From positions 1 to 25,624 of IMG/VR virus record IMGVR_UViG_3300035162_002004: a stretch of 25,624 nucleotides of DNA. One strand, 5' to 3'. Position numbers and translations under genes: made by a program. The notes beneath the pieces were generated by a model. The model worked only from the letters and a program-made list of their open reading frames with translations, had not been told where the DNA came from and did not search any database. Shown here one piece after another: positions 11,944 through 21,203 of this stretch. Each line of letters begins with the position of its first letter. The first letter of the stretch is position 1. The stretch comes from a virus.

Positions 11944-12846
11944 TTACTTGCCAACAACACTTTTAGTGTTAGCGGCCTTTTCACCTGTAGCAGGTGCTTT
12001 AGCGTTTGACATTGACTTAGAAGCTTTTCCGCCTGGTACGTTTACGTTCCCTGCATTATCTTCTTTAGCTGACATTGCTGAGCCTGCTTCACTACCTGTA
12101 CCGCCTTTTGCGATATTAGCAGTTGTGCCACCCATGTCATTTTTGCTTGCAACTGGTGATGTAGCTTTGTTATCTTCACCTGTTGGTGCTGATACTTTTT
12201 CTACGTACTCACGCATTTGTTCGCCTTCAGTCTTTGTACCTTCATAAGCCGGTACTTCATCGCTAAGTTCGGAAGTTTCATAAGACTCTTCCTGCTCATC
12301 TTCATCACCTTCTTCATCATCCATATCCATGTCAGCTTCGTCGTCGCCAGCTTCTTCGCTGTCGTCTTCACCGCTCATCATTTTTTCAAATTCTGCTTTA
12401 AGGTCATCAAGTGCATCTTCTAGGTCAACTACACGATCTTCAACATCTGCATCGTCCATTTCGTCGCCCATATCCATTTCATCGCCATTAGCTTCAATGT
12501 CATCGATAAAGTCATCTGCTTTGTCGCCGCCCATTGGGTCTGCTTCTGGTGTGAATTCTCCGAAGTTTTCTTCAACTTCTTCGTCGGTAGTTTCGTCAAG
12601 ATCTTCGTCATCTGAAGCTTCATCAACTTCTTCGTCAGTTGCTTCATCTACTTCTTCATCTGTAGTTTCATCAACTTCTTCGTCAGTTGCTTCGTCTACT
12701 TCAAGATCTTCTAAATCTGTTTCTAGCATCTTTTCGTAGATACCACGTGATTTTTCAATCACAAATTCGTGGAAAAGCTCATCGGCTCCCGCACGATCGT
12801 TATTAACTAATTTTTCAAGCATTTGCTCGAGTTTGTTATCCGCCAT
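11944..12846 (-). CDS. Acidic prohead core protein (T4 gp67-like)
   Basis: 300 residues; AGGAGAGAAC before the ATG at 12846. The N-terminus (residues ~5-41, LEQMLEKLVNNDRAGADELFHEFVIEKSRGIYEKML) is the short helical domain typical of small T4-type core proteins that follow the portal gene. It is followed by an extremely acidic tract (~43-200). Residues 51-91 are five tandem 8-9-residue units of the type DE-A/T-TDEEV. The last 100 residues are Gly/Ala/Lys/Ser-rich and disordered-looking. T4 gp67, with the same order of a short helix and an acidic tail, is only about 80 residues, so this is a much enlarged version. It probably co-assembles with gp22 in the core and is processed by gp21; gp68 homology is the alternative. 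Confidence 0.75.
   Translation of the reverse strand: MADNKLEQMLEKLVNNDRAGADELFHEFVIEKSRGIYEKMLETDLEDLEVDEATDEEVDETTDEEVDEATDEEVDEASDDEDLDETTDEEVEENFGEFTPEADPMGGDKADDFIDDIEANGDEMDMGDEMDDADVEDRVVDLEDALDDLKAEFEKMMSGEDDSEEAGDDEADMDMDDEEGDEDEQEESYETSELSDEVPAYEGTKTEGEQMREYVEKVSAPTGEDNKATSPVASKNDMGGTTANIAKGGTGSEAGSAMSAKEDNAGNVNVPGGKASKSMSNAKAPATGEKAANTKSVVGK
12574..12696 (-). repeat. In-frame 24-bp tandem repeats encoding DE(A/T)TDEEV
   Basis: Four units of 24 bp and one imperfect 27-bp unit encode DEATDEEV, DETTDEEV, DEATDEEV, DEASDDEDL and DETTDEEV. All unit lengths are multiples of three, so copy number can change without a frameshift. It lies in the acidic tract of the core protein gene. Confidence 0.85.
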
Positions 12847-12956: not shown

Positions 12957-13556
12957 CTAAAAATCATAATATCTTTTAAATTCGCTAACTGTTATGTGTG
13001 ACAAATTCGTACATTTTTTTAATTGCTTAGGTACAAAGTCGTCGTTATCTGATACTATTCTAATAAATTTCTTGCCTTGATGTGCATCACAAGTTGATGC
13101 TGTTTGCCTTTCCCAGTTACCAAAATAAGTTGCAGGCTCACCTTGTTTTTTATAATTGTGTGTTCCTGCGTATAAGTTATTTACCTTTGTGCGGTTCCCC
13201 ACATCGTCCTTTGTGCCATGAAAGTCAAAACCTAAGATGTATATAGTATCATGTGCGTGTGTACTTGCTAACCATAATGCTGTAGGACCACTGCTCCATC
13301 CTTTTGCTGGTTGAAAAAAATTAAATCCTTGCATGCCACTGTATTGCTTATTTGGATTTGTCCATACTGGATGATTCATCTGATACTTAGCATGGTTAAT
13401 TTCTAAAATCATCTTTACATCTACAGCAACCAAGTAGTCAGGCTCAAATGTACGAAATACTGCATTACATGCATATACTTTTCCGTATTTTTTTAAAGAG
13501 TGCAGTTCAAGGTCTTTACGGCTAGTGCCATTACCTATTACGAAAGCAACGGTCAT
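12957..13556 (-). CDS. Uncharacterised phage protein with Rossmann-like N-terminus (MptE/DUF115- or glycosyltransferase-like?)
   Basis: 199 residues; AGGATTTTA ribosome site before the ATG at 13556. It begins VAFVIGNGTSRKDLELHSLKKYG..YACN, a nucleotide-loop-like GNG(T/P)S motif, then FEPDYLVAVD, WSSGPTALWLAS and DTIYILGFDFHG. The combination of GNG-S, a (P)DYL-x-x-x-D acidic motif and a SSGP-T-A-L segment resembles the MptE-like/DUF115 and sialyltransferase-type families, which act on pterin or sugar substrates. I cannot assign a substrate. It lies between the portal and core-protein genes where T4 has no such gene, so it is an accessory insertion in the head operon. It might modify a virion protein, or simply use the late promoter. 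Confidence 0.7.
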   Translation of the reverse strand: MTVAFVIGNGTSRKDLELHSLKKYGKVYACNAVFRTFEPDYLVAVDVKMILEINHAKYQMNHPVWTNPNKQYSGMQGFNFFQPAKGWSSGPTALWLASTHAHDTIYILGFDFHGTKDDVGNRTKVNNLYAGTHNYKKQGEPATYFGNWERQTASTCDAHQGKKFIRIVSDNDDFVPKQLKKCTNLSHITVSEFKRYYDF

Positions 13557-15564: not shown

Positions 15565-17844
15565 CTATTGCAAATTGCCTTTAAGCTCTCTAGTTGCTGT
15601 AGTGTTCTTTTTAAATTCGTCTTTTAACTCGTCTATCTTAGTACTTAGCTTATCCCACCAACTATCACCCTCTGCTTCTGGAGTAGTTGTTGATCCGCTA
15701 GGATCTGATGATGTTGTTGATCCGCTGGTGTCTGGTGCTGTTACTGGTACTGTTACTTCTGGATTAGATGTAGTTGTACTTGGTTCTGAAGCTGTTGGGC
15801 CTGCCGCTAACTTATTTTTAACCCAGTCTGGGGTCCAGCTAGGTAATGACTTTAATAGCCAGGCTTTAATATTTTCCCAATTAAATATACTCGAAATGCC
15901 TGCTACTATAGTGTTAAACTTCTTACTAATACTTTTACCTAGTTCAGATGCGCTAAATTTGTCTTTGATTCCTTCCCAATCAAACACTGAAGCAATACCT
16001 GCAAATAGCAAAGTAGCTATTTTAACCCAAGGATTTAACGTGGCTAACATTTTAACTATTAACGTAGTAATTCCTAATCCAATAGCTACCCATCCTAAGT
16101 TTTCAAATATTGAGCTAAACGCACTACTCAGTAATGGCTTTATTGTATCTATGAATAACTTTTTAGGATCAGTGAATAACTTTTCAAAGAACTCTACAAT
16201 AGCAGGTTTGTATTTTGTCCACAGATCACTAAGTGTTGAAAACATACTTGACATTGTTGATATTATGCCGCCTTCACGTTGACCGCCTCGAGAGCCGCCT
16301 GGTTCGTTTGGTATTTTTTCGCCCATAAACAAATCAGTTATAGATGCTATGAATTTAGTAACTCCATTTTTCATCATAGTTAAGCCATCACCCTTTAGCC
16401 ATTCCCATGTTTTTGTAATAGATGGTAATACGTTGTCTGTAAATTCTGTAGATAATTTATCAAACATAGTTTTAGCTTCTTCACCTGACGGAATTAGATT
16501 AGCAATCATATCGCTTGCATCTTTAAAGATTCCACTGTCAACAAACGCGGCTTGTATTTTGCCTTGAATAGTTGCAACTGTTTCAGCAAAGGTCATTAGT
16601 TTTGCGGTAAGTGCATCACGTGCGCCTTGTTCTTTATCTGTGGCACCTTCTTGTGTTGTTTGTGCTCTTTGAAGTTGACCAGTCACCTGAAGGTATTCTG
16701 CCGCACTTCCGCCTGCCGCCATTGCGGCTTGTACACCAGCATCGCCCAGTGTTTTGGCAAATTTCATACCGTCCTTGCCAACATTTACAGCAAACTCCGC
16801 GGCTTGTTCAGCCGTCATATTCTGTATGTTTTGTGCTTGTGTTCTAAACGTTTCGTTGTTGGCCATTAACTGTTGTGTAAGTGGATCGTTAGCAACTCCG
16901 TCAGCCATATCTAATAGTGCGGCTTCAAGTTGTGGAGATGTTGCAGACAGTGACTGTAAATTGAGGGCAAACTGTTCACCGTGTTTATTAATAGCCATTT
17001 GTCTACGAATGTCTAAATTCTTTGACTTCATTTCTGCTTCTAAATCTTTACGACTCTTACCAGTAAGTCTAGATATTTTATCTAGTTCGCTTGAATATTT
17101 TAATGAACCATCAATTAATTGTTTATTGGTCATGTTCGATCTGCGACCTGACACTTGCATCATTTCGCTGTAGCTAAGAAAGTTTTCGTTTAGGTCTTGG
17201 CTTGTGAAACCTAATTCCATCATTCGTTGCCCAATTGGACTTTGTCTTAATTCTTTTGACAACCCTGCAAATCGTTTGGCACCATCTTGTACAGTGCCGC
17301 CGAAGATACGCATTCCTACAGTGTTTTCTGCTATCAGCGCCGCAAAGTCTCTTTGTGGTATTGCCGCCTCACCTGCAATTTTAGTTAACTCAAACATATT
17401 ATTACCAAAGCCGGCACCAATAGTTGATAACTCTCTAAATGTTCCTGCTTGTTGATCAAGTACATTAGTTAACGAAGCAAGTCCAGGAATTGGAAGGTGT
17501 TGAGCAAAATCTGTTAGTTGTTGTCCGCCAAATGCTAGTTCTTTTGCTAAACCTGGCAGTGTACCAACTACTGCACCAATGCCTGCTAATAGTCCGTTAA
17601 GTGCTCCGCCTATTACGCCTGTTAATGCGCCGCCAAAGGCTTTAACAGCACCTGTTGATTCTTTAGTTGCGGCAGTGTTTTTCTTTTTAGATTCAGTGTT
17701 TTTCTTATCACCATTGTCAGTTGGTGATTGAGGGACGCCTTTCCCTGCAAGAAGTTTAGCAATTTCTTTAAGCGTAGATTCAGAAGCCGCATTATTAGCA
17801 GTAATTTCTCCTAATCCAGGAATATCTATTTTTACGTCGGCCAT
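15565..17844 (-). CDS. Tail tape measure protein
   Basis: 759 residues; ATG at 17844 with only a weak ribosome site (GAGT). The pattern fits a tape measure: a Lys/Asn/Thr-rich N-terminal stretch (~45-65), a Gly/Ala-rich hydrophobic segment (~68-105), a long helical middle (~110-440), a second hydrophobic region (~570-620, GWVAIGLGITTLIVKML... and LLFAGIASVF), a Ser/Thr/Pro linker and a charged helical end. A short repeat FDWEGIKDKF / FNWENIKAWL follows the second hydrophobic part. It would line the tail tube and set its length, as gp29 does in T4. It stands next to, and divergent from, a gp26-like gene with a chaperone-type frameshift, which strengthens the call. A 14-bp direct repeat (15686-15699 and 15713-15726) lies in the Ser/Thr linker codons. 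Confidence 0.85.
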   Translation of the reverse strand: MADVKIDIPGLGEITANNAASESTLKEIAKLLAGKGVPQSPTDNGDKKNTESKKKNTAATKESTGAVKAFGGALTGVIGGALNGLLAGIGAVVGTLPGLAKELAFGGQQLTDFAQHLPIPGLASLTNVLDQQAGTFRELSTIGAGFGNNMFELTKIAGEAAIPQRDFAALIAENTVGMRIFGGTVQDGAKRFAGLSKELRQSPIGQRMMELGFTSQDLNENFLSYSEMMQVSGRRSNMTNKQLIDGSLKYSSELDKISRLTGKSRKDLEAEMKSKNLDIRRQMAINKHGEQFALNLQSLSATSPQLEAALLDMADGVANDPLTQQLMANNETFRTQAQNIQNMTAEQAAEFAVNVGKDGMKFAKTLGDAGVQAAMAAGGSAAEYLQVTGQLQRAQTTQEGATDKEQGARDALTAKLMTFAETVATIQGKIQAAFVDSGIFKDASDMIANLIPSGEEAKTMFDKLSTEFTDNVLPSITKTWEWLKGDGLTMMKNGVTKFIASITDLFMGEKIPNEPGGSRGGQREGGIISTMSSMFSTLSDLWTKYKPAIVEFFEKLFTDPKKLFIDTIKPLLSSAFSSIFENLGWVAIGLGITTLIVKMLATLNPWVKIATLLFAGIASVFDWEGIKDKFSASELGKSISKKFNTIVAGISSIFNWENIKAWLLKSLPSWTPDWVKNKLAAGPTASEPSTTTSNPEVTVPVTAPDTSGSTTSSDPSGSTTTPEAEGDSWWDKLSTKIDELKDEFKKNTTATRELKGNLQ

Positions 17845-17922: not shown

Positions 17923-18849
17923 ATGGTAGATAATAACTTCCCACAAAACATGGGACAACCGGGTATTCCGATGGGACAACCCGTACAACCAGCTGGAAAT
18001 CCGCTGGCAAAACACTTACGACAACCTAAGATTTACATCAAATTGCCAAGTAACGGTGAGTACTGGCCACAAGCGGCATTGAAAAAAGTAGAAAATGGTG
18101 AGTATCCAGTATATGCGATGACAGCCAAAGATGAAATTACAATGAAGACTCCAGATGCGTTATTAAATGGGCAAGCAACTGTTGATGTGATTCAAAGTTG
18201 TTTTCCTAATGTCATTGATGCTTGGCAGTGTCCATCGATTGACCTTGATGCAATTTTAGTTGCAATTAGAATGGCAAGTTACGGCGAAGCAATTGATATG
18301 TCAGCAATGGTTCCACAAACAGAAATTACTAAGGACTTTCAACTCGATCTACAGACAATCCTTGACAATTTAACTAACACAGTATACGAAGATACATTTT
18401 CAATTCCTGGATTCAGAGTTCAAATTGTACCTATTACATATAGACATGCAACTCAACAAGCTATCAAGGCTTTTGAAGAACAGCGTATCTTTGCTACAGT
18501 TAACGATGATGGGCTTACTGAAGAGGTAAAATTAGAACGTTTTTCAAAGAGTTTCAGTAAACTAACTGATATTAATATCAATGTAGTTGTTAATAGCGTA
18601 GTTGCCATTCAGCCAGAAGGTGATGAGGTTGCAGTAACTAACAAAAATCATCTAAGAGAATTTATTGAAGGTGCAGAAGCTGGTGTGTTTAATGCTATAC
18701 AAGCACATATTGCAAAGCAAAAAGATAATTTCCAGCAAAAGCCTATTAAGATGGAAGCTACTGCTGAGGAGATGGAAGCAGGTGCTCCGGCAACTTATGA
18801 TCTTCCGATTACATTTGATCAATCAAATTTTTTCGGCTCCGGATCTTAA
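17923..18849 (+). CDS. gp26: gp26-like baseplate/tail assembly protein (0-frame product)
   Basis: 308 residues with AGGAG 12 nt before the ATG. After a Pro/Gln/Gly-rich N-terminus, residues ~30-75 read QPKIYIKLPSNGEYWP...AKDEITMKTPDALLNG and ~80-125 read VIQSCFPNVIDAWQCPSIDLDAILVAIRMASYGE, the signature of the T4 gp26-type base plate protein family. A VPITYRHATQQAIKAFEEQR segment and a helical C-terminal half follow. It is one of two plus-strand transcription units in the window and lies back to back with the tape measure gene. Its last codons contain the slippery heptamer described separately, so two products, 308 and about 380 residues, are predicted. That pattern suggests a tail assembly chaperone acting on the tape measure protein. 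Confidence 0.8.
   Translation: MVDNNFPQNMGQPGIPMGQPVQPAGNPLAKHLRQPKIYIKLPSNGEYWPQAALKKVENGEYPVYAMTAKDEITMKTPDALLNGQATVDVIQSCFPNVIDAWQCPSIDLDAILVAIRMASYGEAIDMSAMVPQTEITKDFQLDLQTILDNLTNTVYEDTFSIPGFRVQIVPITYRHATQQAIKAFEEQRIFATVNDDGLTEEVKLERFSKSFSKLTDININVVVNSVVAIQPEGDEVAVTNKNHLREFIEGAEAGVFNAIQAHIAKQKDNFQQKPIKMEATAEEMEAGAPATYDLPITFDQSNFFGSGS
18825..18831 (+). promoter_or_regulatory. Programmed -1 ribosomal frameshift site (A AAT TTT)
   Basis: The heptamer A AAT TTT is in the X XXY YYZ register with respect to the gp26-like frame (AAT begins at 18826). It lies six codons before that frame's stop at 18847. The -1 frame has a TGA only four codons upstream and is then open for 77 codons to a TAA at 19062-19064. 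Thirteen nt downstream, CTTAAC (18845-18850) can pair with GTTAAG (18879-18884) and CTCG (18858-18861) with CGAG (18875-18878), giving a bulged stem-loop that could stimulate shifting. The 0-frame stop codon lies inside this stem. Confidence 0.8.
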
Positions 18850-19064
18850 CATGGCCCCTCGATAAAATCCTATCCGAGGTTAAGGTCCTAGAAGGTGATG
18901 TTAAAGAAATAAAATCAGGCTTATTGAAAATAACCTGGTGGATGCGTGGAGGTATTACTCTAGCAGAAGCATATTATCTGACAGTCGAAGACAGAGAATT
19001 AATCAACGATATCATTACAGAGAATTTAGAAACTGCTAAAAAGATTAATCAACCTTTTTGGTAA
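18831..19064 (+). CDS. Frameshift-dependent C-terminal extension of the gp26-like protein (tail assembly chaperone, GT-type; possibly gp51 equivalent)
   Basis: 77 codons in the -1 frame with no ATG, GTG or TTG near the beginning; the first ATG is roughly halfway in and lacks a ribosome site, so independent initiation is unlikely. The coding is well formed: LTWPLDKILSEVKVLEGDVK, then ITWWMRGGITLAEAYYLTVEDRELINDII and a helical end, finishing INQPFW. A helical extension with an 'x-G-x-(T/S)-LAE-x-Y-x-L' core after a tail protein is reminiscent of lambda T-type chaperone tails. In T4 gene 51 follows gene 26, so this could be a short gp51 counterpart, but T4 gp51 is far longer and I do not claim homology. 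Only the fusion protein would carry this domain. Confidence 0.75.
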   Translation, partial: FRLRILTWPLDKILSEVKVLEGDVKEIKSGLLKITWWMRGGITLAEAYYLTVEDRELINDIITENLETAKKINQPFW

Positions 19065-20548: not shown

Positions 20549-20986
20549 TTATGTGTTGGAATGTTTTGCCTGTAAGTGTTCTTTAAGAATTTTTGATCCG
20601 CCAACTCTAACATTAATAATACCATTGTAGTATTGATCTGTTTCGAGTACTCTGCGTTCAAACTGCTCTCGTGCCTCTAAGTAACTTGCTATGCCTCTGC
20701 TAGGACAAATATGAATAATTTCTCTTATAAAATTATCTTCGCCTAACTCTAAAACGTCTGCATTAAGTCTGTCACTGGAACCGTAATAGGTTTGCCAATC
20801 ACTTTCTTTAGTGCTACGTCTTTTGTTTTTTTTGCCTTTGAGTGGTTGTTTTGTTACTTTAAATTTTGCTAGTTTTTTGCCTACGTACATCATGCCATTG
20901 GATTTATTTGTTATCAAGTATACAAAAGCTTCACAACCTTCTGGTAGTTCGTCTATTGTGTTACCCTGATAAGTCCATTGCATCAA
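20549..20986 (-). CDS. GIY-YIG nuclease-like protein
   Basis: 145 residues using the ATG at 20986, where the protein begins MQWTYQGNTIDELPEG. The open frame extends further upstream, but only via a TTG at 21067 overlapping the previous gene, so I prefer the internal ATG. Residues ~20-36 read FVYLITNKSNGMMYVGKK, the two beta strands of a GIY-YIG fold (VYLIT / YVG). Downstream are Lys/Arg-rich segments, EREAR-like helix residues (SYLEAREQFERRVLETDQYYNGIINVRVGG) and a candidate catalytic Glu and final Asn. Free-standing GIY-YIG proteins in T4-like phages are often homing nucleases (the Seg type). It lies beside gp46 rather than inside it, with no intron seen. Confidence 0.75.
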   Translation of the reverse strand: MMQWTYQGNTIDELPEGCEAFVYLITNKSNGMMYVGKKLAKFKVTKQPLKGKKNKRRSTKESDWQTYYGSSDRLNADVLELGEDNFIREIIHICPSRGIASYLEAREQFERRVLETDQYYNGIINVRVGGSKILKEHLQAKHSNT

Positions 20987-21014
20987 GTACTTACCGTTGC
21001 CTGTGTTATTATGC

Positions 21015-21203
21015 CTAAGTCTTGGAATTATGCTTGTCGTGTATCTCATCCATACGAAGTTTGGCAAGAGAGCGTATCTCTCTTAACCATCTTCTTGACT
21101 CTCTATGAGTCCGTACAGAGTTTCTTGCCTCAAACTTTTCGTTTGCCTTAAAATAAGCCATATAAGCCTTAGTTAATTTGTCGTGTGTATCGTCGTCATT
21201 CAT
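21015..21203 (-). CDS. Small conserved-looking phage protein after gp46
   Basis: 62 residues; its ATG at 21203 overlaps the last 8 bases of gp46, which suggests translational coupling. Charged and helical: KLTKAYMAYFKANEKFEARNSVRTHRESRRWLREIRSLAKLRMDEI. The 'Y-F-x-x-NEKFE...SVRTH...R..LR.I..LAK.R' pattern is one I associate with short uncharacterised proteins in T4-like phages. No catalytic motif; perhaps a regulatory or DNA-associated helper. Confidence 0.65.
   Translation of the reverse strand: MNDDDTHDKLTKAYMAYFKANEKFEARNSVRTHRESRRWLREIRSLAKLRMDEIHDKHNSKT

Follow-up and report, generated by a model that had tools for sequence, protein, structure and literature searches.

The DNA analysed here (the window) is the whole of a 25,624-nucleotide virus contig from IMG/VR record IMGVR_UViG_3300035162_002004. 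This 25.6-kb contig carries T4-type genes for a portal, a major head protein and a late sigma factor. A gp26-like gene lies at 17923–18849 on the + strand. It encodes a protein of 308 aa and ends in the codons CAA TCA AAT TTT TTC GGC TCC GGA TCT TAA, the stop codon occupying 18847–18849. The product matches phrog_150 (E 4e-12) and PF12322 (E 4e-10; 40.1 bits, with a cut-off of 24.5), and thus contains the domain of T4-like tail assembly chaperones, of which it would be the short form. The divergent neighbour of this gene (15565–17844, − strand) is tentatively labelled a tape measure protein candidate from its position and a weak similarity to the gp26 neighbours in the phages Phosso and RaK2; family searches with the neighbour returned no matches.

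The AF2 model of the gp26-like protein has a mean pLDDT of 88.8, and in a fold search its matches are other baseplate hub assembly proteins of T4-like phages. A fold search against the PDB and a profile search of PDB sequences both returned nothing significant. The alignments used for this and the other structure models consisted of rows from the window and IMG/VR only. The gp26 fold was also matched, at E below 0.001, by uncharacterised proteins of ~500 aa from jumbo phages, for example RP12, RSF1 and Special G. These proteins might be chaperones in phages that are not usually called T4-like.

Relatives of the locus were gathered by IMG/VR scans with gp26 and with the protein encoded downstream of it in the −1 frame (the extension), and by tblastn of phage genomes. 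The loci from the IMG/VR scan with the extension protein were selected by that protein, not via the slip-site heptamer, and are the best 80 of at least 587, which favours close relatives. Removal of near-duplicates left 77 loci for the slip-site comparison, belonging to uncultured phages, jumbo phages, cyanophages and a pelagiphage. The jumbo isolates among the relatives are Atu_ph07, Phosso, 121Q, Paride, RaK2, Vibrio 2.275, XaC1, BF, Munch, SCTP-2 and CM1. Of the isolate loci counted for the slip site, seven were located by a search for a T run at the end of gp26, the IMG/VR loci having been chosen otherwise; these seven are therefore not independent evidence for the T run.

At the end of the gp26-like gene, the heptamer T TTT TTC (18828–18834, + strand) stands in the 0-frame register of an X XXY YYZ slippery sequence. 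An in-register T TTT TTN is present in 77 of the 77 non-redundant relatives, a set that comes partly from the best 80 of at least 587 loci: 73 have T TTT TTC, three T TTT TTT and one T TTT TTG. Since the loci are related, probabilities calculated for the slip site overstate their independence. The preceding codon is variable (AAT, AGT, CAT, CGT, ACT, GAT, TCT, GCT or TAT), its last base always being T. Because the −1 codon CGN, which encodes Arg in nearly all relatives, takes its first base from the final C of T TTT TTC, the conservation of this C was not counted toward slippage. The initial annotation had placed the slip on the overlapping heptamer A AAT TTT (18825–18831, + strand). This heptamer is indeed in slippery register in the window, but it is kept in register in 41 of the 77 relatives, as compared with all 77 for T TTT TTN, and was rejected as the main slip site.

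As had been read earlier, no stop interrupts the −1 frame between 18819 and the TAA at 19062–19064. The extension proper (18834–19064, + strand) consists of 76 codons beginning with CGG, followed by the stop codon. A random frame of 77 codons stays open in 0.3% of cases in shuffled window sequence. The −1 frame runs beyond the gp26 stop in all jumbo isolates and uncultured-phage loci examined, and it is open in 99 of the 99 relatives with a 78-codon extension, both other frames containing stops in all 99. Median dN/dS for 161 moderately diverged pairs of relatives was ~0.07 in the −1 frame, as compared with ~1.0 in the 0 frame past its stop and ~2.8 in the +1 frame, and pN/pS of the window itself against more distant loci was 0.31–0.50 in the −1 frame. 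These values indicate that the −1 frame is under purifying selection. Alignments of the relatives further showed that the Phe-Phe-Arg junction is conserved.

Folding and helix scoring revealed a stem downstream of the slip site, with the 5' arm GGATCTTAAC at 18841–18850 and the 3' arm GTTAAGGTCC at 18879–18888, both on the + strand. The 0-frame stop TAA lies inside the stem, in the 5' arm, as had been proposed from the window alone. The proposed spacing of 13 nt did not hold, the stem beginning 6 nt after T TTT TTC and 9 nt after A AAT TTT. The window's own fold is no better than that of shuffled sequences (z 0.06 and 0.42), and support for the stem comes from the relatives. Folding energies of the 77 loci compared with synonymous shuffles gave a mean z of −1.71, with 31 loci below −2. 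Counting from the heptamer, positions +7 to +16 are enriched as 5' partners. The highest-scoring helix begins at +6 or +7 in 48 of the 77 loci; the mean helix score is 20.1 as against 11.8–13.3 at shifted positions. The 3' arms lie at several places (about 26–37, 43–56 and 65–77), and the arms differ in sequence between loci yet remain complementary, for example GGCTCTTTGT/ACAAAGAGCC and AGGATTCTGACCT/AGGTCAGAATCCT. Across the relatives, the stem thus begins within the distance expected of a stimulatory structure, ~5–9 nt downstream of the slip site. In the folding of the 77 loci, a strong stem was absent from some, notably from several jumbo phages.

A further observation concerns the geometry of the stem. 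The 5' arm is fixed, and the 3' arm lies at +26–37 in some relatives and at +45–55 in others (loci L073, L078 and L094 versus L003–L011). Hence, the partner of the stimulator seems to relocate between relatives.

Taken as a whole, the gp26-like gene is very probably a T4-like tail assembly chaperone gene in which a −1 slip on T TTT TTC gives a short form of 308 aa and a long form of 380 residues. The comparison of relatives strongly supports the core of the initial annotation, namely a −1 frameshift yielding short and long T4-type chaperones, and the predicted fusion of 304 + 76 = 380 residues agrees with the product of ~380 residues that it expected. The case is made from sequence: a conserved slip site, a −1 frame that is free of stops and under purifying selection, a stem in the relatives, and the absence of an alternative start. 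From these we infer that a minority of ribosomes slip. Most ribosomes would stop at 18847–18849 and release the short form, acting like lambda gpG. A minority would slip back one base on the heptamer, probably helped by the stem starting 6 nt downstream, and read 76 more codons to give the long form, which would act like lambda gpGT. Both forms would chaperone the tape measure protein, with the extension presumably recruiting tail tube subunits. The T4 family makes its two forms from the paralogous genes 26 and 51.

The same long protein is predicted if RNA polymerase, and not the ribosome, slips on the T run, adding one U so that some mRNAs carry the fused frame. Every slip site has at least six T, and the runs in Cr30 and HTVC008M are longer than six, as transcriptional slippage would favour. 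However, such slippage usually needs runs longer than six T, and most sites have only six. The stem at a fixed distance of ~6 nt fits a stimulator of ribosomal frameshifting. Moreover, TTTTTTC is not avoided elsewhere in the window, where eight copies were found and 11.5 were expected from shuffling. The motif is thus not rare, and the evidence lies in its conserved place and register. Transcriptional slippage is therefore considered improbable.

Alternatively, the extension could be a separate small gene with its own start, or one translated by re-initiation after the gp26 stop. It is annotated as such in 121Q, BF, Phosso, S-PM2 and P-SSM2. The cyanophages among these (S-PM2 and P-SSM2) differ from the window in having a shorter extension, annotated as a second gene, and an ATG that follows closely on the slip site, just past the gp26 stop, so that separate initiation is possible there. 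Likewise, gp26 of Pseudomonas phage Cygsa01 (locus L144, 772–1682) has no T TTT TTC, and the gp51-like ORF behind it overlaps gp26 in a TAATG, which possibly reflects a switch from frameshifting to re-initiation. In the window, however, the first ATG, GTG or TTG of the −1 frame is a TTG 96 nt past the slip site, within the conserved domain, and scanning the whole frame in locus L099 and in Paride found none of the three codons. The extension, with dN/dS of ~0.07 and no stop in 99 loci of the relatives, is thus a coding frame, and in the window's clade it has no usable start of its own. A separate gene would also have no need of the conserved slip heptamer and Phe-Phe-Arg junction. On the positions of start codons and the conservation of the heptamer, this explanation was rejected for the window's clade, where it is very improbable. 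The conservation check suggested by the initial annotation accordingly gave a divided result: the −1 frame is conserved and A AAT TTT is not, and the absence of a usable start, correct for the window up to the TTG, holds in the window's clade and not in the cyanophages. Relatives in which the second ORF could be started separately had been named in advance as evidence against frameshifting. They were found in part, with the cyanophage ATG and the possible TAATG start of Cygsa01, but lie outside that clade.

Single-base errors in homopolymers are common, but a sequencing or assembly error in the T run has a negligible probability and was ruled out, as all 77 non-redundant loci, drawn from many assemblies as well as from isolate genomes, show the same split.

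The −1 frameshift reading extends beyond the window's clade. In S-PM2 and P-SSM2, as in the window, T TTT TTC stands near the end of gp26, and the −1 frame of that gene is what is annotated as gp51. These two phages, HTVC008M, Cr30 and phiM9 all have a phrog_634 match in the frame at −1 to gp26, and the layout of the slip site is common to them and the jumbo phages.

The T4 family is organised otherwise, with a short gp26 and a long gp51 as separate PF12322 genes. Both T4 proteins match PF12322; an additional C-terminal part, which matches phrog_634, is confined to gp51. T TTT TTC was absent from gp26 in six of the six T4-family phages tested, three of which keep Phe-Phe. The T4 gene ends in AAA GAG TTC TTT GAG TTA CTA TAA, where Phe-Phe is kept and the slip site is gone; the codons at the end of gp26 are TTC TTC in CC31, TTT GTC in AM101 and TTC TTT in Serratia 4S, none of them forming T TTT TTC. 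CC31, AM101, phiAS4, Serratia 4S and an RB49-like phage, whose gp26 genes all have no T TTT TTC, have a separate gene at the gp51 position. The pattern in the T4 family fits loss of the slip site in phages that encode the long form in a second gene. In Campylobacter phage CP81, two PF12322 genes lie side by side. We lean slightly towards the view that cyanophages, pelagiphages and T4-like jumbo phages inherited a module of T TTT TTC and stem from a common ancestor, and that gene duplication replaced this module in the T4 family and Campylobacter phages. In this module, the 5' arm would have stayed ~6 nt downstream of the slip site, and the 3' partner would have moved between several positions.

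The AF2 model of the extension consists of helices (mean pLDDT 88.8), and its fold search gave weak viral matches, including one to the Moogle tape measure chaperone. Comparison of the extension with PHROGs and Pfam indicated no clear family, phrog_634 being matched by one of 61 extension members, at 0.006. The profile of the cyanophage-type extension aligns with residues 202–244 of T4 gp51, and the window-type extension gives a collinear alignment with the gp51 C-terminus. Profile links of the window-type extension are weak, with E 2e-5 to the HTVC008M extension and 1.2 to T4 gp51, and a direct profile comparison (hhalign) of the extension with the gp51 C-terminal family was not significant. 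A homology between the extension and the T4 gp51 C-terminus is plausible but, by sequence, weak.

In known systems, the closest likeness is to the gp26/gp51 chaperones of T4-like phages, which share with the window a PF12322 gene and short and long forms; T4 itself has two separate genes, whereas the window has one gene with a −1 site. In their 2022 work, Vladimirov and co-workers reportedly found frameshifting to be conserved in several T4-like groups, with T4 using genes 26 and 51. Lambda gpG/gpGT belong to another protein family and use another heptamer, which is G GGA AAG. They are co-linear with the tape measure gene, whereas the gp26-like gene is divergent from its tape measure candidate. 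The chaperones of Vandenendeviridae and Andersonviridae, such as those of Adele and Moogle (PMC12846349), also use a −1 frameshift, in which the GTTTTT motif is invariant and the −1 frame stays open for >200 bp. Their motif differs from that of the window; beyond the frameshift, the likeness here consists in the weak match by fold between the extension and the Moogle tape measure chaperone.

Tail assembly chaperone genes of T4-like phages were identified by Vladimirov, Gautam & Davidson (2022; Virology 566:9–15, PMID 34826709), according to the passages that cite this work in the PRFect (PMC10885494) and Adele (PMC12846349) papers. Those passages report that some T4-like phages have a two-gene form and others poly-T slip sites, the latter being placed in T4-like short-form genes by PMC12846349. 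As far as these citing passages go, the window locus is therefore of a known kind, and the earlier proposal that a fused gp26-gp51 newly unifies the T4 and lambda systems had been anticipated. This analysis contributes the conserved slip site, the conserved stem, clear cases in jumbo phages, and the loss of the slip site from T4-family genes. The findings link contractile tails of the T4 type with the way in which lambda-type phages make two tape-measure chaperones in fixed proportion. They also suggest that many database entries for 'gp51' or 'hypothetical protein' after gp26 are the end of a frameshifted gene, a general point made in 2022.

Elsewhere in the window, 11944–12846 (− strand), located between the portal-side genes and a protease-like gene, encodes a very acidic, repetitive protein of 300 aa with DEEVDEATDEEVDE repeats. 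Adjoining the portal gene, 12957–13556 (− strand) encodes a protein of 199 aa with weak similarity to alpha-2,3-sialyltransferases (phrog_4603; PF06002 below cut-off). Finally, a SegE-type GIY-YIG endonuclease (PF19835) is encoded at 20549–21067 (− strand), ~1.5 kb past the frameshift gene.
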